A stretch of 64,000 bases of DNA from positions 289,760 through 353,759 of the forward strand of contig JADFDS010000011.1 of the NCBI GenBank assembly GCA_018262715.1. The letters are read 5' to 3'. Origin of the DNA: Bacteroidota bacterium. Its GTDB lineage: Bacteria; Bacteroidota; Bacteroidia; Bacteroidales; VadinHA17. Of this stretch, positions 6,838-53,305 are shown one piece after another. The notes under the pieces are model-generated. The model had not been told where the DNA came from, did not search any database, and saw only the letters and a program-made list of their open reading frames with translations. The translations under genes and the position numbers were made by a program. Every line of letters begins with the position of its first letter. The stretch's first letter is position 1.

Positions 6838-8211
6838 ATGAAAAGCAGATTTACCTCAACTCTGCTGCTGGTAATTGTTCCTGCAGCAATACTCCTTACA
6901 CTGGCCGCCTTTAACATAATCAGATCGCTACCGCAGGAAGATCTGAAGGGAAAGTACCAGTACAAGGATTTCGAGCCGGCTCTCAAGTGCCGCTCATGTC
7001 ACCCGGGCATCTATGAGCAATGGTCTCAGGCGATGATGTCACAGGCTTACACCCATCACTGGGATGAAATTGAATATTTTGAACTTGCAGTTCCCCATGC
7101 AGAAGTTAATCCTGCCCTGAAGGATCCGGTTGACGGCTGCAATGGGTGCCATACACCGATGGCATATATGGTCGGCAAGTTTCCTCCTCCGCGCCCGGGG
7201 GAAAAGAGCATGGCCAATGAGTCAGTCTCGTGCGAGGTCTGCCATCTTACGCAGAGGGCACAGGTTGATCCGCCCTTCAATTTCAGCTACTTTATTGAAC
7301 CCGGGCGGACAAAATACAGCGGTCGGGAGCCTGAAATCCAGTCGCCTGCACACAAGATTGTTCAGAATGATTTCTTCCGGACAACCGAGTTTTGCGGCAA
7401 CTGTCACAACGAGAAGAATCCTTACGGCATCTGGGTGAAAAGCACGCAGCTGGAGTGGAAGGAGGGACCCTATGCCAAAGAGGGTGTACGGTGTCAGGAC
7501 TGCCATATGCCAAAGGGTCCGTATATCCTGGCACTGATGGGGAAGGAGCGCGATGATGCCCGCCTCCACCTGTTCCACGGAGCTCATGACCCCGGCAAGG
7601 TAAGAGGAACCATTGAGCTACGGATTGAGCCTGACGTACGTCTCGCCGAGCCCGGCGAAAACATAGTCTTTACCGTTGCGCTGTTCAACCAGAAGACGGG
7701 ACACAAGTTTCCCACCGGATCGGTGGAAGACCGCATAGCCTGGCTCGATGTCGAGGCTACTGATGCTAAGGGTAAAACCTATCACCTTAACGTTGATAAA
7801 AAAGGATTTGAAGGCGAGGAGTATACTATCTCTGGTGATTACCTTGCCTACCAGGACATGGCCATACCGCTGAAGCTTACTGATTTCAGGGGAGTGCAGC
7901 GCGACGGCATACCATACGGGAACCGGATATTCCGTATGCCCTATTTTGATGAGCAGGGAAATATGACAATCATGCAATGGAACACCTTCTCCCAGGGAGT
8001 GGATTACCGTATCGGTCCAAGGGAGACCAAGGTGGAGAAATTCACATTCAAAATACCCTATGAGGCTGCACCCGGAGAGATGAAGGTAAGAGCTGTGCTT
8101 AACTACCAGCTCCTTGTGAAGCCGGTGGCTGACTACCTGAAAGTGCCGTCTGATGAGTCAGAGATCATAATGGTCAATGAGCATTCAACCAGAGTCGAGA
8201 TTCTTCCCTGA
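6838..8211 (+). CDS. Pentaheme c-type cytochrome (cytochrome c554-like)
   Basis: 457 residues. An N-terminal hydrophobic segment (residues ~8-28) would export or anchor the protein. Five CxxCH heme sites follow at about residues 51, 100, 131, 186 and 219 (CRSCH, CNGCH, CEVCH, CGNCH, CQDCH). The second half has no heme and contains 'TGHKFPTGSVEDR', a motif found beside heme domains in exported multiheme cytochromes, then beta-rich sequence. It should carry electrons in the periplasm or at the surface. The next gene, 24 bp downstream, encodes a heme-motif barrel protein, so the two are probably co-transcribed. The partner oxidoreductase is not in view. Confidence 0.88.
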   Translation: MKSRFTSTLLLVIVPAAILLTLAAFNIIRSLPQEDLKGKYQYKDFEPALKCRSCHPGIYEQWSQAMMSQAYTHHWDEIEYFELAVPHAEVNPALKDPVDGCNGCHTPMAYMVGKFPPPRPGEKSMANESVSCEVCHLTQRAQVDPPFNFSYFIEPGRTKYSGREPEIQSPAHKIVQNDFFRTTEFCGNCHNEKNPYGIWVKSTQLEWKEGPYAKEGVRCQDCHMPKGPYILALMGKERDDARLHLFHGAHDPGKVRGTIELRIEPDVRLAEPGENIVFTVALFNQKTGHKFPTGSVEDRIAWLDVEATDAKGKTYHLNVDKKGFEGEEYTISGDYLAYQDMAIPLKLTDFRGVQRDGIPYGNRIFRMPYFDEQGNMTIMQWNTFSQGVDYRIGPRETKVEKFTFKIPYEAAPGEMKVRAVLNYQLLVKPVADYLKVPSDESEIIMVNEHSTRVEILP

Positions 8212-8235
8212 TAATCAAACCTTAAAGAAATTTAT

Positions 8236-9438
8236 ATGAAAACTTCTTTCTATGCCAGGGCTGCCATATTGACCGTAACGATCATTATGCTGCTTCCATA
8301 TGAACAGGTATCGGCCATACCGGCCTTTGCCCGCAAGTACCAGATCAGCTGCCAGGTGTGTCATTCTCCGGCTGCCCCTACCCTGAAGCCATTCGGCGAT
8401 GAGTTCGCGGGAGCAGGCTTCAGAATGACTGATTATGAATCGCCACGCTATTTCATACAAACCGGAGACGACAGGCTTTCTTTGTTCAGGGAGCTTCCGC
8501 TTGCCATAAGAATTGACGGATTTGCTACATTGAACTTCAATGATGCCGGAACAGTTGATTTCGGGTCGCCGTTTGTGGTGAAGATCCTTTCCGGCGGTGA
8601 GCTTTCCGACAAGTTGTCGTACTACTTCTATTTCCTGATGAACGAGCGTGGTCACATAGCCGGTCTCGAGGATGCATTTCTTATGTATTCCGATGTGCTC
8701 AATTCAGGCATAAACCTGTTTATAGGCCAGTTTCAGACTTCAGACCCGCTGTTCAAGGGCGAGTTACGCCTTACACTCGAACCGTACAAGATTTACGGCG
8801 TCAAACCATCAGAATCTTCGGTTGACCTGAAGTATGACCGGGGAATAATGTTTGACAAAGGCTTTTCCACAGGGACCACCATTGTAGGCGAGATTATCAA
8901 CGGCTGTGGCATCGGAGAGGCAGGTGAAGGGTATCTCTTTGACAAGGACAAATACAAGAATTTCATGCTCAGACTGAACCAGGCCATCGGCAACAGTGTC
9001 TCAATCGGCTTCTTCGGATACACCGGGAAGGAGGTCATAACGGACAACGTGTCTGATCCTTACGTTAGTGAGATGAAGATGTACGGACCTGACCTGTCAG
9101 TCGACATAGACGGTAAACTGCTGCTGAATGTACAATATTTGTGGAGGACTGACTCAGATGTGTTTGATGGGGACGGTGAGGTTCACCTGACAGACGTGAA
9201 AACACAGGGAGGCTTCGCGGAGGTGATCTATGCGCCTAAAGGCGATATGAGCAAATGGTACTTTACGGGACTTGTCAACTGGGTTGACTCAGACCTTGAC
9301 CAGCTGGATTACCAGTCAGGGACGATACATGCGGGGTATCTCCTGAGGCGGAATGTAAGGCTTGTGACCGAATACACCAGGATCTTCGGCGGGAATCCCT
9401 ACGGCAAGCTCAGCGCCGGCTTTGTCTCGGCATTCTGA
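8236..9438 (+). CDS. Outer-membrane barrel-like protein with one heme-binding motif
   Basis: 400 residues with a cleavable signal peptide ('QVSAIPAFA') and a single CxxCH (CQVCH, residues ~39-43) just after it. The rest is rich in alternating hydrophobic/polar stretches and aromatic ends, and the final residue is Phe after a 'LSAGFVSAF' strand, as in outer-membrane beta-barrels. Heme-bearing, porin-like proteins of this size sit next to multiheme cytochromes in several phyla. I infer a porin-cytochrome module with the preceding gene. There is no homology proof, and the electron acceptor is unknown. Confidence 0.65.
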   Translation: MKTSFYARAAILTVTIIMLLPYEQVSAIPAFARKYQISCQVCHSPAAPTLKPFGDEFAGAGFRMTDYESPRYFIQTGDDRLSLFRELPLAIRIDGFATLNFNDAGTVDFGSPFVVKILSGGELSDKLSYYFYFLMNERGHIAGLEDAFLMYSDVLNSGINLFIGQFQTSDPLFKGELRLTLEPYKIYGVKPSESSVDLKYDRGIMFDKGFSTGTTIVGEIINGCGIGEAGEGYLFDKDKYKNFMLRLNQAIGNSVSIGFFGYTGKEVITDNVSDPYVSEMKMYGPDLSVDIDGKLLLNVQYLWRTDSDVFDGDGEVHLTDVKTQGGFAEVIYAPKGDMSKWYFTGLVNWVDSDLDQLDYQSGTIHAGYLLRRNVRLVTEYTRIFGGNPYGKLSAGFVSAF

Positions 9439-38985: not shown

Positions 38986-40242
38986 ATGAAAAACACATTC
39001 TTAAGCCTGGCAATTATTGTGGTTGCCGGCACGACGGGACAGATGACATCATGTGAAGATCAAACGGAAAAATCCCTCCCGGCCGACCCCGTGGAGATAA
39101 ACCTTTCCCTGAAGCAGAGAGAGGTGGTAGCCTCTGCAAACAGGTTTGGCTTTGACCTGTTCAGGCCGGTGGTGGCCGGGGAGGAGACAGGTACAAACAT
39201 CATGATCTCTCCTTTCAGTGTCACCAGCGCACTTTCAATGACTCTGAACGGTGCCTCAGGAGAAACATTCAACGCGGTCAGATCGGCTCTGCGCTATGAC
39301 GGCCAGAGCCTTGAGGAGGTCAATGAGACCTATCGCAGGCTAGTGACAGAAATGGTTCCTGTGGATGAGCGGGTGGTAATGGAAATTGCCAATTCAGTCT
39401 GGGCTGAGAACAATTTCCGGGTGAAGAAGGAATTTATGGATGCCCTGAAGGAGTGGTACCTGGCGGAAGCACGGAATTTTGATGTGACCGATCCACGCTC
39501 AGTGGATATCATCAATGGCTGGATTGAGGAGAAGACCCACGACAGGATTCAGAATATGCTTTCATCACTTGACCGTGACCTGGTGATGCTGCTTGTCAAT
39601 GCGGTTTACTTCAATGGCAAGTGGAAGCATCAGTTTGACATTAATAATACTGCAGAACGTCCTTTTTTCGTTACTCCCGGGAACCCCGTCAAGGTGCCGG
39701 TGATGTACCAGAAGCAGAAGTTTGCCATGTCTCGTCAGGAGAAGGTGACACTGGTTGAGTTGCCGTACGGGCAGGGCAACTACTCGATGGTGGTGGCTCT
39801 TCCTGATGAGGAGATCGCCCCTTCGGAGATTGTCACCGGACTTGATGCCGGGAAATGGGAGGAATGGATGGAAAGCCTGTCATACGGGCCGACTGAGGTT
39901 GAGTTGTACATGCCGAAATTCAAGTACGAATACAAGCGTAAGCTGAATGATGATCTGATCAGCCTGGGGATGGATCCGGCTTTTGCCCCGGGCATTGCTG
40001 ACTTCAGCAGGATAAGCGACGAGGAGATATTCATCTCGTTCGTTCTTCACCAGACATTCATCGAGAACAAGGAAGAGGGCACGGAAGCTGCTGCGGCGAC
40101 TGTAATAGGGTTCACCCGTACATCACTTCCTCCCGAGCCCGAGGTAATTGACATAAACAGACCGTTCCTTTACTTTATCCGGGAGACGACTACCGGCACG
40201 ATAGTATTCATGGGGCTGGTTGCTGATCCCACAGGGGAGTGA
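38986..40242 (+). CDS. Serpin-family protease inhibitor, lipoprotein
   Basis: 418 residues from 'MKNTFLSLAIIVVAGTT'; lipobox Cys at 'MTSCED' (~25). The frame is open further upstream but that part overlaps the terminator and promoter. The serpin fold is complete: 'NIMISPFSVTSALSMTLNGASG', 'NAVYFNGKWKHQF', the shutter region and the C-terminal 'INRPFLYFIRE'. The hinge 'EEGTEAAAATVIG' has the small-residue pattern of inhibitory serpins; counting from Gly as P15 puts Thr-Arg-Thr at P3-P1, though the loop is about three residues longer than in antitrypsin. It should trap host or competitor serine/cysteine proteases at the surface. Confidence 0.94.
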   Translation: MKNTFLSLAIIVVAGTTGQMTSCEDQTEKSLPADPVEINLSLKQREVVASANRFGFDLFRPVVAGEETGTNIMISPFSVTSALSMTLNGASGETFNAVRSALRYDGQSLEEVNETYRRLVTEMVPVDERVVMEIANSVWAENNFRVKKEFMDALKEWYLAEARNFDVTDPRSVDIINGWIEEKTHDRIQNMLSSLDRDLVMLLVNAVYFNGKWKHQFDINNTAERPFFVTPGNPVKVPVMYQKQKFAMSRQEKVTLVELPYGQGNYSMVVALPDEEIAPSEIVTGLDAGKWEEWMESLSYGPTEVELYMPKFKYEYKRKLNDDLISLGMDPAFAPGIADFSRISDEEIFISFVLHQTFIENKEEGTEAAAATVIGFTRTSLPPEPEVIDINRPFLYFIRETTTGTIVFMGLVADPTGE

Positions 40243-45940: not shown

Positions 45941-47278
45941 TTATTTAATTACTTCAATATCAAATATTTCATGCCTGTCAAACTGCAGCCAGTACTTTAT
46001 CGAATTCTGCCTGACCAGTTCCCAGTAGATATCGCTGTCGAGACCGTATATAAAGTTAATTTCCTTCAGTTCAGCGGTGACCCTTTCAGCGAGCTCATTT
46101 TTAAGTGTGATCCTGACAGTTCTGTCCTTATGTGTGAAGTCGGCAGCCGGAAAGTAAGGCTGTTTCGGACTGACCGTCAGCAGTCCGTGCCCCGGGGTGG
46201 CTCCGGTGCTGACCTGGATGCCATCATTCATGCAACTGAGCGGGGGAGTTGATCCGGCATGTGTGGTAACCTCCATCTCATCAACTCCGGTGCAGAAATA
46301 TTCGCGCGCCCTGATGCCCATCTTTACCCCGATAATTGCAAACACTCCGAGGTGGCGATGCAGTTCGTTGGCTATCACTCCCGAGGTCCACTCATCCTCG
46401 CCATATTTGTTTCTTATTCCGGAAACGAAAGGCTGGATGTCAGGCATGTAAAACGATGTGTCCGCGGGCATCCTTTTTATGGTCTGCATTCTTTCCACGG
46501 TCTCGCCGCGAAGCATTTTAAGAGCTGCTGTCCGGAGCCCGTTTATGTCCGACGGGGTGCGGTATGTTATCCTCTTATCGCTGCCCTCCTGGCTGAATAG
46601 CTCCGGGAAGTGCAGGAGCAGCGGCACCATCTCATCATAAGCGGTATATGCGAAACTGTGAGATGGCATTGAGTTTATGAGGTCACTTACCCTGAATGCA
46701 TATGGAGAACGGATCATGCTTATGTTGCCCAGAAGCCCACTATCATAAAACCCCTCTCCTCCGCCTCCGGTCACCGTTACCGGAATCTTTCCTGCCAGAA
46801 CCTTTTCCGCTGATGCGGGATCAGACCTGTAATTGCTTCCATCTTTTCCCGGAAGGCCGCTGTTGCTCCAGTAAATCTGCTTCACTTTGCCGGCGAATGA
46901 GGGGGATTGTTCCATTGCCACTGCTGCGGTTTTCAGGCTGCCCATCGCAAGGAATTTGACAGGTGTTGTCTCTGAAGCAAGCATCTTTTCGATGAGAGCT
47001 ACTGCATCCCCGGGTCCGGCCACAGGGAGGCCTTCATGATAAAGCCCGTCGGCCAGGTCCCTTAGCTTTTCGTACGCCACGGGGGCCTTGTGAAATCCGT
47101 CCGAAGCCGTTATTGCCAGAATCCTTACATCCGGTGATGCCATCAGCATGCATATTGCCTTCAGGTCATCAATCCCGCCGTCGCTGTCAATTATGACAAA
47201 ATGCCTGGGCTTCCAGGGGTGTGCTCCGAGAGAAATAATAACAAGAGAAAGAAGTATGGTTAGTATTGTACGCCTCAT
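45941..47278 (-). CDS. Nucleoside hydrolase-like and FmdE-like fusion protein, exported
   Basis: 445 residues from 'MRRTILTILLSLVIISLGAH', a signal peptide; the frame is open far upstream (to 48625) but that part is antisense to the cytochrome gene and has no coding character. Residues ~25-260 follow the inosine-uridine nucleoside hydrolase pattern, including the Ca2+-binding 'IDSDGGIDDLKAI'. Residues ~310-400 match FmdE (formylmethanofuran dehydrogenase subunit E family): 'LHRHLGVFAIIGVKMGIRA' and 'SCMNDGIQVSTGATPGHG' with its conserved Cys. A ribohydrolase fold and a metal-binding FmdE fold in one exported chain is uncommon. Substrate unknown; the downstream GH20 hints at glycan or nucleoside-sugar scavenging. 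Confidence 0.8.
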   Translation of the reverse strand: MRRTILTILLSLVIISLGAHPWKPRHFVIIDSDGGIDDLKAICMLMASPDVRILAITASDGFHKAPVAYEKLRDLADGLYHEGLPVAGPGDAVALIEKMLASETTPVKFLAMGSLKTAAVAMEQSPSFAGKVKQIYWSNSGLPGKDGSNYRSDPASAEKVLAGKIPVTVTGGGGEGFYDSGLLGNISMIRSPYAFRVSDLINSMPSHSFAYTAYDEMVPLLLHFPELFSQEGSDKRITYRTPSDINGLRTAALKMLRGETVERMQTIKRMPADTSFYMPDIQPFVSGIRNKYGEDEWTSGVIANELHRHLGVFAIIGVKMGIRAREYFCTGVDEMEVTTHAGSTPPLSCMNDGIQVSTGATPGHGLLTVSPKQPYFPAADFTHKDRTVRITLKNELAERVTAELKEINFIYGLDSDIYWELVRQNSIKYWLQFDRHEIFDIEVIK

Positions 47279-47479: not shown

Positions 47480-48919
47480 GTGAAGAGGAAGACCCGGATA
47501 CTGTTTTTTATCGGCCTTGTGGCCGGGATGGTTATCCTTGCCGGATTCGGCAAGGCAGTTGAATATACTTCCACCAATGATTTCTGTGCGGTTTGCCACG
47601 TCCATCCGCAGGCAACGACCTCCTGGAAGCAGGGTATCCACTACGCCACTCAGTCGGGCTACCGTACCGGCTGCGCCGAATGTCATCTTCCGCCGAAGGG
47701 TGAGGGTTACCTGGTTGAGAAGGCGAAGACAGGAATGCGTGACCTGTGGAGCCACTGGACAAAGGATTCTGCAGATTTTGACTGGGAGGCGGCATCGACA
47801 CTTGAGAGAGCCTCGAAACACGTTTATAATTCCAGTTGCATCCATTGCCATGAAAATCTCTTCCCGGCAAAGCTGACACGCGATGGATCCGAGGCTCACC
47901 TCTACTACAAGCAGATGACTGAAAAGGGAGAGGATTTGCAGTGCATAAGCTGCCACCTCAATGCCGGACATTATATCGAGGGTTATATCCATGGGAGCAA
48001 CACCGGGTTTGGTGCTTCTGTGGCCAGGGCGGACACACTCTATCAGTACCCGGCCAAGGTGACGGGCTTTAAAGATTTTACCGAGCAGGTGCCGGGTTCG
48101 GCAGTTACCTTCAGGATGATTGCGGTGCCTGGAGGTGAGTTCACCATGGGCAGTCCTGAGGGTGAGCCGCTGCGCGGCGAAGATGAGGCTGAGAGGATGG
48201 TAAAGGTCGATTCCATTTTCATTGCCGAGGTGGAGGTGACCTGGGATGAGTACATGGAGTTTTACAGGCAGACGGCATCGGAAGGGAGGAGTACCGATAC
48301 GGAAGGTGCGAGGGCAAAAGCTGCCGGTGTTGACGCCATCAGCGGAGCCACCCCTCCCTATGGCAAACCCGACCAGAACTGGGGTATGGGACAGCGGCCG
48401 GCCATCTCGATGAGCTGGCATGCGGCGGAGACCTATTGCAGGTGGCTCTCTAAGGTTACCGGCAAAAACTACAGGCTCCCGACCGAGGCTGAGTGGGAGT
48501 ACGTCTGCCGTGCAGGGACTACAACGCCATACTTCTTCCCGGGAGACCCTGCTAAGTTTGAAAAAAAGGGCCTTTTCGGAGGCAAACCTGATACGTCGGT
48601 GATAAGCACCTTCGTGATCTACCACGGCAACAGTCCTTCAAAAACCCAGGAGCCGTCGGCTGTGAAGCCCAACCCGTGGGGGATAAGGAACATGAGCGGC
48701 AACGTTGCTGAGTTCTGTTCCGATATCTATGAGGGAACCAGTGAGCATGTCATCAGGGGCGGATCATTCCGTGACGGGGCTGCTGGTGTCCGCAGCGCTG
48801 CCCGTGACCATACCCGCACCGATGAGTGGCTGAAGACCGACCCGCAGATGCCCAAGAGCATATGGTGGTACTCTGATTGTTTTCATGTTGGATTCCGGGT
48901 CGTAATGGATTGGAAATAA
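47480..48919 (+). CDS. Tetraheme NapC/NirT-like cytochrome fused to SUMF1 domain
   Basis: 479 residues from a GTG start; the overlapping ATG at 47478 meets TGA at once. One N-terminal membrane anchor (~8-25) is followed by four CxxCH sites at residues 36-40, 65-69, 120-124 and 155-159, with spacing like NrfH/NapC quinol dehydrogenases. From ~206 to the end is a formylglycine-generating-enzyme-like (SUMF1) fold: 'VPGGEFTMGSPEGE', 'RLPTEAEWEYVCRAG', 'NMSGNVAEFCSDIYEG', 'HVIRGGSFRD ... GFRVVMD'. The catalytic Cys pair of true FGE is missing ('GGSFRDGAAGVRSAAR'), so the domain is probably a binding or structural module. Likely a periplasmic, membrane-anchored electron donor. Confidence 0.88.
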   Translation: MKRKTRILFFIGLVAGMVILAGFGKAVEYTSTNDFCAVCHVHPQATTSWKQGIHYATQSGYRTGCAECHLPPKGEGYLVEKAKTGMRDLWSHWTKDSADFDWEAASTLERASKHVYNSSCIHCHENLFPAKLTRDGSEAHLYYKQMTEKGEDLQCISCHLNAGHYIEGYIHGSNTGFGASVARADTLYQYPAKVTGFKDFTEQVPGSAVTFRMIAVPGGEFTMGSPEGEPLRGEDEAERMVKVDSIFIAEVEVTWDEYMEFYRQTASEGRSTDTEGARAKAAGVDAISGATPPYGKPDQNWGMGQRPAISMSWHAAETYCRWLSKVTGKNYRLPTEAEWEYVCRAGTTTPYFFPGDPAKFEKKGLFGGKPDTSVISTFVIYHGNSPSKTQEPSAVKPNPWGIRNMSGNVAEFCSDIYEGTSEHVIRGGSFRDGAAGVRSAARDHTRTDEWLKTDPQMPKSIWWYSDCFHVGFRVVMDWK

Positions 48920-48960: not shown

Positions 48961-49027
48961 ACATCGCAAATCGCAGGTCGCAAATCGCAACTCCAGATCG
49001 CACATCGCACATCGCAGATCGCAACTC
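48961..49027. repeat. ATCGCA-type short repeats
   Basis: Units such as ATCGCAA, ATCGCAC and ATCGCAG alternate here, with two copies of ATCGCAACTCCA. This is the fourth GCAAATC-like locus in the window. It leads directly into the AGACCTTC array. Confidence 0.75.
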
Positions 49028-49030
49028 CAA

Positions 49031-49132
49031 AGACCTTCAGACCTCAGACCTTCAGACCCAGACCTTCAGACCTCAGACCTTCAGACCTCAGACCTTCAGA
49101 CCTCAGACCTTCAGACCTTCAGACCTCAGACA
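49031..49132. repeat. AGACCTTCAGACCTC tandem array
   Basis: About 6.7 copies of a 15-nt unit made of an 8-mer and a 7-mer (CAGACCTT, CAGACCT), with single-base variants. There are no unique spacers, so it is not CRISPR. It ends 7 bp before a -7 promoter element for the following gene. Confidence 0.9.
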
Positions 49133-49168: not shown

Positions 49169-50497
49169 ATGAAAAAATCATCCATATCCAGAAGAAACTT
49201 TCTTGGCACGGCTGCAGCCGCGGGGGCGGCAGGCATCGTTGTGCCGGCATTCATCACATCATGTTCAACCGAAAAACGCGCAAAAGTCGTGCTGCCAACA
49301 ATGCTTGATGCAGCACCTGACGGTCCGCTCCTCAAGGCAGGCCTGATTGGCTGCGGCGGCAGAGGCACGGGCGCTGCTCTTAACTTTTTACATGCGGGAC
49401 CAAACCTGACAATAGCTGCCCTCGGTGATGTCTTTGCCGACAGGATCACCGCATGCCGCGAACGCCTGGCCAAAGACGGGGTGGAAATTGCTGATGAAAA
49501 ATGCTATACAGGTTTCGATGCCTACCAGAAGGTAATTGATTCAGGGGTTGACATTCTAATACTTGCGACACCGCCATACTTCCGCCCGATGCATTTCGAG
49601 GCAGCCGTAACGGCTGGCAAGCATGTGTTCATGGAGAAACCCGTTGCCGTCGATCCGGCAGGAGCAAGGCAGATCATGGCCACGGGCGAAAAGGCGAAAG
49701 GAATGGAGCTCTGCGTTGTTACCGGAACCCAGCGTCATCACCAGCACGATTATGTGGCAACATGGGGCAAGGTACAGGAGGGAATGATAGGAGACATCGT
49801 GGCAGCCAACTGCTACTGGAACCAGAACCAACTCTGGTACCGGGACCCCAATCCCTCATGGTCGGAGATGGAGTATATGATCCGTGACTGGGTCAACTGG
49901 TGCTGGCTTTCAGGTGATCATATTGTTGAACAGCATGTCCACAACATAGACGTAATAAACTGGTTCACAGGCAAGAAGCCGGTTTCGGCCGTCTCCTTCG
50001 GCGCACGCCACCGTCGCGTCACAGGTGATCAGTATGATTTCTTCAGCACTGATTTCATCTATGACGGCGGCTTCCATGTGCACAGCATGTGCCGCCAGAT
50101 CAACGGCTGCGAGGGTAACGTCTCGGAGTGGATACAGGGAACGAAGGGCACATCCAACTGCCAGAACACGGTATGGGATCAGGCCGGAACAGAGCTCTGG
50201 AAATATGATGGTTACAAGCTTGATGACCAGGGCAAGATGACAGAAGAGCTCATCCGCAGCCCTTATGACCAGGAGCACATTGACTTCGTGACGGCAATCC
50301 GTACCGGGAAGCCGCTGAATGAAGCTGAATTTGTCGCAGTGTCGACCATGGCCGGCATCATGGGCAGAGTCTCAGCATATACTGGTAAGAAGGTCACATG
50401 GGATGAGATGATGAACTCAGAGCTCAAACTGGGTCCGAAGGTATTTGAAATGGGACCGGTGGATGTATCGAAAACGGTACCGGTGCCAGGGGAATAA
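49169..50497 (+). CDS. Gfo/Idh/MocA-family oxidoreductase, Tat-exported
   Basis: 442 residues from 'MKKSSISRRNFLG', a twin-arginine signal followed by 'AAAAGAAGIVVPAF'. The in-frame region upstream is the repeat array and is not coding. The Rossmann domain starts 'LIGCGGRGTGAAL' and the family motif 'GKHVFMEKP' holds the conserved Lys. C-terminal substrate domain ~190-430. Exported members act on sugars or glycan ends, sometimes as NAD-retaining glycosidases or epimerases; the substrate here is unknown. The next gene encodes a Tat-exported sugar isomerase-like protein, suggesting a joint pathway. Confidence 0.9.
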   Translation: MKKSSISRRNFLGTAAAAGAAGIVVPAFITSCSTEKRAKVVLPTMLDAAPDGPLLKAGLIGCGGRGTGAALNFLHAGPNLTIAALGDVFADRITACRERLAKDGVEIADEKCYTGFDAYQKVIDSGVDILILATPPYFRPMHFEAAVTAGKHVFMEKPVAVDPAGARQIMATGEKAKGMELCVVTGTQRHHQHDYVATWGKVQEGMIGDIVAANCYWNQNQLWYRDPNPSWSEMEYMIRDWVNWCWLSGDHIVEQHVHNIDVINWFTGKKPVSAVSFGARHRRVTGDQYDFFSTDFIYDGGFHVHSMCRQINGCEGNVSEWIQGTKGTSNCQNTVWDQAGTELWKYDGYKLDDQGKMTEELIRSPYDQEHIDFVTAIRTGKPLNEAEFVAVSTMAGIMGRVSAYTGKKVTWDEMMNSELKLGPKVFEMGPVDVSKTVPVPGE

Positions 50498-50619: not shown

Positions 50620-51558
50620 ATGGAATCAAGATCAAGACGCAGTTTTCTCAGGGGGACGGCAGCTGCAGGCGCGGCACTCTTTGCCGCCCCTTCAATTCTT
50701 TCCGGAAAGAGCCGTTCAGCAGCTGTTCCTGACGCGGATAAACCGTTCAGGCTGGCCTATGCTCCCTCGATCGGGATGTTCCGTGAGCTGTGCGGAAGTG
50801 AAGACCCTCTCGACAATATCCAGTTCCTGGCTGATAAGGGATTCAGGGCGCTGTTTGACAACGGTTTTCCCGGCCGTCCGGTGGAAGAGCAGGAAAGGAT
50901 ATCAACAAAAATCCAGAAAATGGGATTGATGATGGGTCCATGGGTGCTGCATGCCGACTTCGGAAACACTTCGTTTGTGATGCCACACCGCGATGTGCGT
51001 GACTTCCTGACAACAAAGATGGAAGAGGGCATTGAGGTGGCCAGGCGTACCGGTTTCAAGACAGCGCTGGTGGTTCCCGGCAGGTATGATGAACGGCTGC
51101 ACCCTGACATCCAGCTTGCAAATGTAATTGATAATCTCAGGTACTGTGCCGACCTGGTAGGCCCCGAAGGAATGACACTTGTGCTAGAACCGCTGAACAC
51201 GCTGCATGATCATCCGGGCCTCTGGCTGACGCGCATGCCGCAGGCATACCAGGTGTGCAGGGCGGTGGGCAGCCCGGCAGTTAAAATAGTTGAAGACATG
51301 TACCATCAGCAGATCACTGAGGGGAATCTGATTCCGAATATCGAAGCCTGCTGGGATGAGATAAATGCATTCCATGTCGGAGACAATCCGGGCCGCAATG
51401 AGCCTACAACGGGGGAGATCAACTACAAGAACATTTTCAGTTACCTGCTCTCACGTGATTATCAGGGTGTGATCTGCATGGAACACGGCCGCAGTGTAAG
51501 GGGCCCTGAAGGTGCCCGCCGGGTGATAGAGGCATACCGTGAGTGTGACCCGTTCTGA
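50620..51558 (+). CDS. Sugar phosphate isomerase/epimerase-like TIM barrel, Tat-exported
   Basis: 312 residues. Twin-arginine signal 'SRRSFLRGTAAAGAALFAAP'. The mature part is an AP-endonuclease-2-like TIM barrel: 'VLEPLNT' (metal-binding Glu), 'KIVEDMYHQQI', 'FHVGDNPGRNEPTTGEINY' and 'CMEHG' are shared with hydroxypyruvate isomerase-like proteins. It should isomerise a small sugar or ketose in the periplasm. It follows the Tat-exported Gfo/Idh/MocA gene; such pairs are frequent in Bacteroidota sugar-acid metabolism. The exact reaction is not predictable. Confidence 0.88.
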   Translation: MESRSRRSFLRGTAAAGAALFAAPSILSGKSRSAAVPDADKPFRLAYAPSIGMFRELCGSEDPLDNIQFLADKGFRALFDNGFPGRPVEEQERISTKIQKMGLMMGPWVLHADFGNTSFVMPHRDVRDFLTTKMEEGIEVARRTGFKTALVVPGRYDERLHPDIQLANVIDNLRYCADLVGPEGMTLVLEPLNTLHDHPGLWLTRMPQAYQVCRAVGSPAVKIVEDMYHQQITEGNLIPNIEACWDEINAFHVGDNPGRNEPTTGEINYKNIFSYLLSRDYQGVICMEHGRSVRGPEGARRVIEAYRECDPF

Positions 51559-51586: not shown

Positions 51587-53305
51587 TTGACAAGGGACAG
51601 GACAGGTATCAGCGATAAGTGGATCAGGGCATCCATTATCGGCACCATATGGGCTGCTGCCGAGATCGTTCTCGGCAGTTTCCTGCATAACCTTCGTGTT
51701 CCGTTCAGCGGTAACATGCTTACCGCAATAGCCCTTGTCATACTCATTGCGGTCAGTTACCGCTGGCGCCAGCATGGTCTCTACTGGCGTGCCGGGCTGA
51801 TATGCGCCCTCATGAAGGCAATGTCGCCTAGCGCAATCATCTTCGGGCCGATGATTGCTATCATCATGGAATCGGTTCTCCTTGAGGTCTCTGTCAGGCT
51901 TCTTGGCCGCACTTACCTGGGTTTTATTGTCGGTTCAATGCTTGCCATGTCATGGAACCTGTTCCAGAAGGTGTTCAATATGATCATTTTCTACGGGGGC
52001 AATCTCGTGGAGATATATTCAGGCATAACTGCCTGGGCTGAGAAGCAGCTGAGTCTGAATTTCAACGCCTTCTGGGCCCCGCTGGTACTGTTGCTTTCAA
52101 TCTATGCCCTTTTCGGGGCTGTCACCGCTGTCGCGGGAATCATAACCGGACGCCGGATAGCGTCCCTTCCGCCTGAGGAGTCGCTCCCCGAGCCGGCTGT
52201 GATCCGCGCACAGGAGAAGAAGAAAAAAAATTCGTTTGACTATTCGCTTCCATGGCTGGCGGCAGACATTCTGTTGGTTGCCGCGATGCTCGTGGCAGTG
52301 AGCACCCTATCATGGGTATGGTGGGTCATAGTTGTGATTCCGGGTGTTTCCGTAATGGCCATGAGGTACAAGAGGGCGATGCGACAGCTGTCGAAGCCCG
52401 GCTTCTGGGTCACCTTCGTGGTTATCACCATGCTTTCAGCCCTGGTCTTCACCGCAATCAGCCATGAAAAAAACAGCCTCCGGGAGGCAGTGCTTATTGG
52501 TATCCAGATGAACTTCCGGGCTGTGATAATAATTGTAGGCTTTTCAGCGCTGGGCACGGAGCTTTACAACCCGAAAATCCGCACTCTGTTCAGCCGCACA
52601 CGCTTCAGGCAACTTCCCCTGGCCCTCGAATTGTCAGCCGCCAGCCTGCCAACAATGATCGCTGACATGCCTGACCTGAAGACGGCGGTAAAGACACCGG
52701 TTTCCATTCTCAACCGGATGATAACACGTGTCGAAAGGAGGCTGAATGAGGTCAGAAAGGAGCAGGAGGAGGAAAGGAAGGTCTTTATTATAACCGGCGC
52801 CATCGGCGAAGGAAAGACGGCCTGGCTGGTCAAACTGACGGGGCTGCTCAGGGAAAGAGGTGTCATGACGGGTGGCATCCTCGCATTGCGAATCATGGAG
52901 GAGGGGAAGACTACAGGTTATGATATAACAGATATCCGGACCGGCGACAGGACTCCCTTCCTGAGGCAGACAGGTGATGCTGAGACGGGAGTGGAACGCT
53001 TCACAATGGATGAGGCCGGGCACAGAGCCGGACAAAGGGCTCTTGACCCCGCATTGAACAGGTCTGTGGATGTTGTTATTGTGGATGAGGCAGGGCCGCT
53101 TGAACTGAGAGGAGAGGGATGGAGCGAAAGGATCACCGGGATTCTTAATGAAACCAGGGCAATAATTATCCTTGCGGTCAGAAAAAATCTCATTCAGGAT
53201 GTTACTGAAACATTCGGGATAAGCCCGACAGGGATAACGGATGTGGCAAACGGGGATGTCGTCCGCTTCGCGGATGAGATTACCGCGTTGACAATAAAAC
53301 GGTGA
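51587..53305 (+). CDS. Polytopic membrane protein fused to THEP1-type NTPase
   Basis: 572 residues from a TTG start at 51587; the nearest upstream in-frame codon is a stop at 51560 and the first ATG would remove the first helices. Residues ~10-200 hold about five to six membrane helices resembling ECF-type substrate-binding subunits ('LHNLRVPFSGNMLTAIALV'). Further helices at ~225-330 and a 'LPLALELSAASLP' segment recall an EcfT-like coupling region. Residues ~398-572 are an NTPase_1/THEP1 domain: P-loop 'GAIGEGKT' (~403) and Walker B 'VIVDEAGPLEL' (~497). A transporter-like part joined to this nucleotidase in one chain is unusual. Substrate unknown. Confidence 0.75.
   Translation: MTRDRTGISDKWIRASIIGTIWAAAEIVLGSFLHNLRVPFSGNMLTAIALVILIAVSYRWRQHGLYWRAGLICALMKAMSPSAIIFGPMIAIIMESVLLEVSVRLLGRTYLGFIVGSMLAMSWNLFQKVFNMIIFYGGNLVEIYSGITAWAEKQLSLNFNAFWAPLVLLLSIYALFGAVTAVAGIITGRRIASLPPEESLPEPAVIRAQEKKKKNSFDYSLPWLAADILLVAAMLVAVSTLSWVWWVIVVIPGVSVMAMRYKRAMRQLSKPGFWVTFVVITMLSALVFTAISHEKNSLREAVLIGIQMNFRAVIIIVGFSALGTELYNPKIRTLFSRTRFRQLPLALELSAASLPTMIADMPDLKTAVKTPVSILNRMITRVERRLNEVRKEQEEERKVFIITGAIGEGKTAWLVKLTGLLRERGVMTGGILALRIMEEGKTTGYDITDIRTGDRTPFLRQTGDAETGVERFTMDEAGHRAGQRALDPALNRSVDVVIVDEAGPLELRGEGWSERITGILNETRAIIILAVRKNLIQDVTETFGISPTGITDVANGDVVRFADEITALTIKR

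Follow-up and report, generated by a model that had tools for sequence, protein, structure and literature searches.

What does a membrane-bound tetrahaem cytochrome do in the same polypeptide as a SUMF1-type domain, and with which enzyme, if any, does it work? This is the question raised by one gene in a 64,000-nucleotide stretch of DNA from a Bacteroidota bacterium of the VadinHA17 lineage (hereafter "the window," meaning that whole stretch). The initial annotation had described the gene product as a NapC/NirT-like protein joined to a SUMF1 domain that lacks the catalytic cysteines of formylglycine-generating enzyme (FGE), and had suggested that the SUMF1 part might recruit or sense a reductase encoded elsewhere. 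The gene that follows it encodes a Gfo/Idh/MocA oxidoreductase, here called GFO. The features are collected in Table 1.

Table 1. Features at and around the fusion gene, in window coordinates
Feature	Position	Strand	Basis or remark
IU_nuc_hydro domain joined to FmdE domain, divergent from fusion	45941..47278	-	upstream match in 25/64 fusion loci
NapC/NirT tetrahaem–SUMF1-like fusion, 479 aa	47480..48919	+	GTG start; Pfam; homologues with same architecture
N-terminal membrane anchor helix, residues 3-30	47486..47569	+	AlphaFold2 helix, block pLDDT 89-93; hydrophobic sequence
Cytochrom_NNT (PF03264) tetrahaem domain, residues 4-165	47489..47974	+	Pfam, 99.3 bits
Haem 1 site, C36AVCH40 V H42 (CHxH)	47585..47605	+	H42 in 65/65 fusion rows; NrfH-type relatives CHxM
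Haem 2 site, CAECH, residues 65-69	47672..47686	+	65/65 fusion rows
Haem 3 site, CIHCH, residues 120-124	47837..47851	+	65/65 fusion rows
Haem 4 site, CISCH, residues 155-159	47942..47956	+	65/65 fusion rows
SUMF1/FGE-type domain (PF03781), residues 212-446, without catalytic Cys pair	48113..48817	+	Pfam, alignment, fold match
Gfo/Idh/MocA oxidoreductase (GFO), Tat signal then Cys, likely Tat lipoprotein	49169..50497	+	PF01408, PF22725, TAT_signal
Xylose-isomerase-like TIM barrel (AP_endonuc_2), Tat-type N-terminus	50620..51558	+	PF01261, TAT_signal_seq

One reading frame with two domains, and where it occurs

The fusion is encoded by one open frame of 479 codons and a stop, with no internal stop codon. 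Both of its domains scored far above the Pfam cut-offs, Cytochrom_NNT with E 2.7e-28 (99.3 bits against a cut-off of 24.1) and FGE-sulfatase (PF03781) with E 6.1e-35 (121.5 bits against 23.3), and together with the alignment of fusion proteins described below these matches bear out the reading of the gene as a tetrahaem–SUMF1 fusion without the FGE cysteine pair. The four CxxCH sites begin at residues 36, 65, 120 and 155, exactly as first annotated, and the membrane anchor proposed at the same time is supported both by the hydrophobic N-terminus and by the long helix at residues 3-30 in an AlphaFold2 model (130 aligned sequences, mean pLDDT 85.1, pTM 0.66). In that model the haem part, which was modelled without haems, is mostly helical, the linker at residues 170-180 is poorly defined, and the SUMF1 domain is largely confident with a weak loop at 268-292.

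If two genes had been joined by a missed stop codon or an assembly error, the architecture would be an artefact. This explanation has next to no chance of being right: we found nothing in its favour, and it is refuted by dozens of separate assemblies in which a single open frame encodes the same architecture. When the best four candidates at most were scored per genome, the same fusion appeared in 51 of the 393 sampled genomes of the order (counting G759, where a contig end cuts it to a piece; two or three copies are present in some genomes), and a match to both domains appeared in at least 3 of the 395 sampled genomes of the phylum, the window's own genome included. Among the loci kept from a collection of named genomes (the best 80 of 266), 31 of 79 carried the fusion, whole or truncated, and all the fusion loci among these came from metagenome-assembled Bacteroidales or Bacteroidota. 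The 71 fusion proteins in our set are mostly distinct, with only two pairs at least 95% identical.

Searching the 395 phylum genomes with only the haem part, at E 1e-8, turned up no free-standing member of this haem subclade; the five matches were three fusions and two NrfH-like proteins with CHVM at haem 1. Two haem-only matches in the order (G624 and G546) sit at contig ends.

What the two domains resemble

The score above the Pfam cut-off, and the N-terminal helix followed by four CxxCH sites, place the fusion by sequence within the NapC/NirT family. Sixty-five fusion rows of our alignment, the window's included, span both domains (contig ends truncate two more, L047 and L050), and in all 65 the C, C and H of the four haem sites are invariant, as are H42, H54, K81, D88, H140 and H164. 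Aligned with the NrfH of D. vulgaris (2j7a), H42 falls on the Met of the CHxM motif, K81 on a Lys and D88 on an Asp; we take this Lys and Asp to be residues of the NrfH quinol site, and a quinol/quinone site in the fusion is predicted from the conservation of K81 and D88. The Met is present in all 28 readable distinct NrfH-type loci, out of 31 distinct loci among the 32 best-scoring ones (L117 and L219 being one gene), with L228, L232 and L236 left uncounted since another multihaem frame had been read there. The Met position presumably matters for haem 1, and the His in its place should lower the potential of this haem.

The fusion scored 69.1 with the NrfH profile of NCBIfam (TIGR03153), below the cut-off of 134.2; with this cut-off missed and CHxM absent at haem 1, it is not, as judged from these features, an NrfH. 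It shares with NrfH and the other NapC/NirT quinol dehydrogenases the N-terminal helix, the four CxxCH sites and the aligned Lys and Asp, but unlike 2j7a it carries a SUMF1 domain, has CHxH in place of CHxM at haem 1 and adjoins a GFO gene. We also rejected the idea of an NrfH that has lost its NrfA; besides the fusion, a canonical NrfH-like gene (L002, with CHIM) is present in this genome.

The SUMF1 part has the fold and the Pfam family of formylglycine-generating enzyme, but unlike that enzyme it is tied to GFO and lacks the catalytic Cys pair, which we presume, from human FGE, to lie after the RGG motif. Between RGGS and residue 446, Cys occurs in at most 18% of fusion rows at any column and nowhere in the window protein; other Cys columns occur at 320, 413, 467 and 476. 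A true formylglycine-generating enzyme was rejected on the absence of the catalytic pair.

In a fold search, whose rows cover residues 193-479 and barely touch the haem part, the best match was PvdO of pyoverdine maturation (Z 27.9, rmsd 2.2, 228 residues, 28% identity), tied with TvpA of Treponema (Z 27.3), while formylglycine-generating enzymes reached Z of about 22-23. We take PvdO to be periplasmic and, like the fusion domain, Cys-less, and TvpA to be a ligand-binding variable protein. The likeness to PvdO might suggest a catalytic redox role for the SUMF1 domain, which would pass electrons from a substrate of its own to the haems while GFO makes or uses that substrate. This we think quite unlikely: the closest fold does belong to a protein whose NCBIfam model is named dihydropyoverdine dehydrogenase, but the fusion scores only 84.8 with that model (NF051459) against a cut-off of 500, and, because the presumably ligand-binding TvpA matches as well as PvdO, the fold says little about function. 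The fusion further differs from PvdO in its haem domain and in its gene neighbours. With the GldK/PorK profile of NCBIfam (TIGR03525) it scored 86, below the cut-off of 350. Docking, sensing and catalysis are putative roles of the SUMF1 domain.

Pairing with GFO, with and without haems

The initial annotation had stated that no partner reductase is adjacent, and this proved wrong. The GFO gene starts 249 bp downstream of the fusion on the same strand (start 49169 was preferred to that of the longest frame, 48935, on account of the Tat signal), and on its Rossmann domain (PF01408, 51 bits against 24) and its EKP motif, invariant in the 62 fusion-linked GFOs long enough to align, its product is assigned to the Gfo/Idh/MocA family. 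RRxF is present in 62/62 of these proteins and a Cys at the lipobox position in 61/62. Two tandem-repeat arrays, with units of 7/14 nt and 8/15 nt, lie between the two genes at 48963-49131.

After four of the 71 fusion loci were dropped for short contigs, 67 with at least 700 bp of downstream sequence remained. A GFO gene on the strand of the fusion starts no more than 600 bp downstream in 63 of them, at distances of 26-305 bp (median 83). The four exceptions are L049, L052 and L152, in which SusC/SusD genes come next, and L171, in which the nearest GFO is on the other strand; the genome of L152 does have a GFO gene on the strand of the fusion, about 9 kb beyond it (at G504:C24:96680, with the fusion at G504:C24:85869). 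The SusC/SusD genes of the three loci hint at glycan uptake.

Across the 393 order genomes, with no more than four candidates scored per genome in either search, 51 have both genes, none has the fusion only, one has the GFO only (E <= 1e-50) and 341 have neither; taking the haem piece at a contig end in G546 for a fusion would make these numbers 51, 1, 1 and 340. The fusion is thus present in 51 of the 52 genomes that have this GFO, although genomes and loci are related and these pairing counts are not independent; a Fisher value computed from them ignores relatedness, overstates the case and carries no weight in our argument. In the GFO-only genome (G552) no fusion was found when all eight candidates were scored. 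The window's own genome has only seven PF01408 genes, which makes chance adjacency to the fusion improbable. Taken together, the genomics gives good support to a partnership of the fusion with GFO, and the distant reductase first imagined as the partner gives way to the enzyme encoded next door.

Could GFO be one client among many, or an incidental neighbour, of a general CymA-like quinone hub serving several periplasmic partners? A NapC/NirT domain with the conserved Lys and Asp, and the four loci without a GFO next on the same strand, would suit such a hub, but the nearly one-to-one co-occurrence in the order and the absence of a stand-alone haem subclade from the phylum search make it very unlikely. 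Within the open-licence PMC literature we found no description of a NapC/NirT–SUMF1 fusion or of its fixed GFO partner, and within that literature both appear to be new, NapC/NirT proteins themselves being known.

Among named families, inositol and glycoside 3-dehydrogenases come nearest to GFO, which falls far short of the cut-off of each. A BT_2158 glycoside 3-dehydrogenase was ruled out, the BT_2158_fam profile (NF058561, NCBIfam) giving 34.6 against a cut-off of 750. GFO resembles the BT_2158-type and LacABC-DUF1080 3-keto-glycoside systems in being a Gfo/Idh/MocA protein with a Tat signal, with DUF1080 genes near some relatives, but it differs from them in this low score and in that none of the 71 fusion loci has a GMC match (one seed).

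By direct matching, 28 of 59 fusion loci have the TIM-barrel gene no more than 3.5 kb away; a looser clustering, with either strand allowed and a reach of 9 kb, gives 42 of 71. A family-wide link to the divergent IU_nuc_hydro–FmdE gene was dropped, with matches in 25/64 fusion loci and in none of 60 entries for solo SUMF1 proteins (some places counted twice). At 51587-53305 is an NTPase_1 gene (PF03266) whose product has a hydrophobic-looking N-terminal part and which is kept beside the operon in 13 loci. Elsewhere in the window, at 6838-9438, a multihaem cytochrome (Cytochrome_C554/C7) precedes a protein of 400 aa that has a single CxxCH and matches no Pfam family; at 38986-40242 there is a serpin gene (PF00079, E 9.8e-110).

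In a tree of SUMF1 domains all 67 fusion tips formed one clade with moderate support (0.805), whose sister is a group of 47 SUMF1 proteins without haems; the support for the two together is 0.996. A GFO gene is found in the locus of 42 of the 47 sister-group proteins as against 0 of the 15 more distant ones on the tree, these counts being taken from the 62 solo tips (L063 is a cut fusion, and the solo alignment set of 64 includes the cut fusions L047 and L050). Near-duplicates and distant SUMF1 loci, including L089, L090, L099, L104-L106, L109, L110 and L112, were left off the tree, and no GFO match was found in the distant loci so omitted. Since the haem-less sister group is mostly linked to GFO, the pairing of SUMF1 with GFO most likely predates the haem domain, and it is most likely, from the single clade, that the haem domain joined SUMF1 once. 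These solo proteins also fit that part of the initial annotation which saw in the Cys-less SUMF1 domain a partner module of an electron-transfer protein.

Flavobacterial loci such as L065 and L067 show the order GMC oxidoreductase, gluconate 2-dehydrogenase subunit 3, 3-keto-disaccharide hydrolase, SUMF1, GFO, TIM barrel. GMC matches were found in 18 solo entries, as against the fusion loci mentioned above, and matches to the 3-keto-disaccharide hydrolase (DUF1080) near 6 of the 71 fusion loci. The GMC flavoprotein and the gluconate-dehydrogenase subunit might be the redox route of the solo operons. Two solo SUMF1 genes, L186 (8059-9105) and L187 (7198-8205), have no GFO and a partnership that differs from the GFO pairing; we take their neighbours to be a YceI-like gene and a planctomycete-type cytochrome/DUF1501 cluster.

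A possible haem route for an exported oxidoreductase

Tat-exported Gfo/Idh/MocA enzymes are common in Bacteroidota and Planctomycetes, and for the turnover of their cofactor outside the cytoplasm we know of no clear route beyond self-balancing cases such as glucose-fructose oxidoreductase. PMC4628093 describes that enzyme, a member of the same family as GFO, as having a Tat signal and a bound cofactor regenerated by a second sugar, and there the same handling of a bound cofactor is assumed for an aldose-aldose relative (AAOR), also with a Tat signal. PMC9007349 sets out a periplasmic 3-keto-glycoside route, for lactose with LacABC, in which DUF1080 proteins are proposed or shown to act as hydrolases.

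On balance we think it slightly more likely than not that the fusion is a membrane tetrahaem carrier whose SUMF1 domain holds or serves the Tat-exported GFO, with electrons from sugars passing through the haems to menaquinone. GFO would be exported folded, with its nicotinamide cofactor bound, and would need an electron partner from outside, there being no free NAD(P) pool in the periplasm. The periplasmic SUMF1-like domain may hold or serve it there, and the fusion of this domain to a membrane tetrahaem domain would bring a quinone-linked electron path to GFO; electrons from the oxidation of a sugar or glycoside could then run over the four haems to menaquinone, the haem partner replacing the second sugar that regenerates the cofactor in glucose-fructose oxidoreductase. 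Where a TIM-barrel enzyme is present, it may act on the oxo-sugar. We infer the contact between fusion and GFO, the bound cofactor of GFO, the flow of electrons and its direction, the substrate, and the step from NADH hydride to haem.

That last step is the weak point of the proposal: a hydride carrier would have to deliver to one-electron haems, and neither a flavin nor another two-electron/one-electron switch is visible in the fusion sequence. It also counts against a GFO wire that sister-group SUMF1 proteins pair with GFO and have no haems, which means that GFO can work without a fused cytochrome. NapC/NirT proteins, moreover, usually run electrons from quinol outward, which counts against inward flow. 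In PMC12285233 NapC/NirT proteins are described as quinol dehydrogenases that feed periplasmic reductases; for CymA, which belongs to that haem family, PMC6295460 describes the ability both to oxidise quinol and to reduce quinone.

The reverse direction, from menaquinol through the haems to a GFO that acts as a periplasmic oxo-sugar reductase, therefore has the usual role of the family on its side, and the gene pairing and co-occurrence fit it equally well. We nevertheless judge it improbable: the 3-keto-disaccharide hydrolase, present in the flavobacterial solo operons and near a few fusion loci, fits an oxidative 3-keto route better, and electron transfer from menaquinol to NAD is uphill.

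Returning to sugar oxidation by GFO with the haems as acceptor, a more exacting form of the proposal is conceivable, if doubtful, in which a lipid-anchored GFO has its bound NAD(P) re-oxidised by a SUMF1-tethered tetrahaem quinone reductase with no flavin at all, and in which, throughout Bacteroidota, such enzymes have their dedicated partners in the Cys-less SUMF1 proteins of this branch. If true, this would be a new kind of respiratory sugar-oxidation complex, in which periplasmic nicotinamide chemistry is wired to the quinone pool.

The fusion adds to the NapC/NirT family a branch with an altered haem-1 site, and it offers a specific candidate partner for one branch of Cys-less SUMF1 proteins. 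Co-occurrence and pairing suggest that it may be a wire from extracytoplasmic sugar chemistry to respiration, and, read as a "Rosetta stone," it singles out a candidate electron-transfer partner for exported Gfo/Idh/MocA enzymes.
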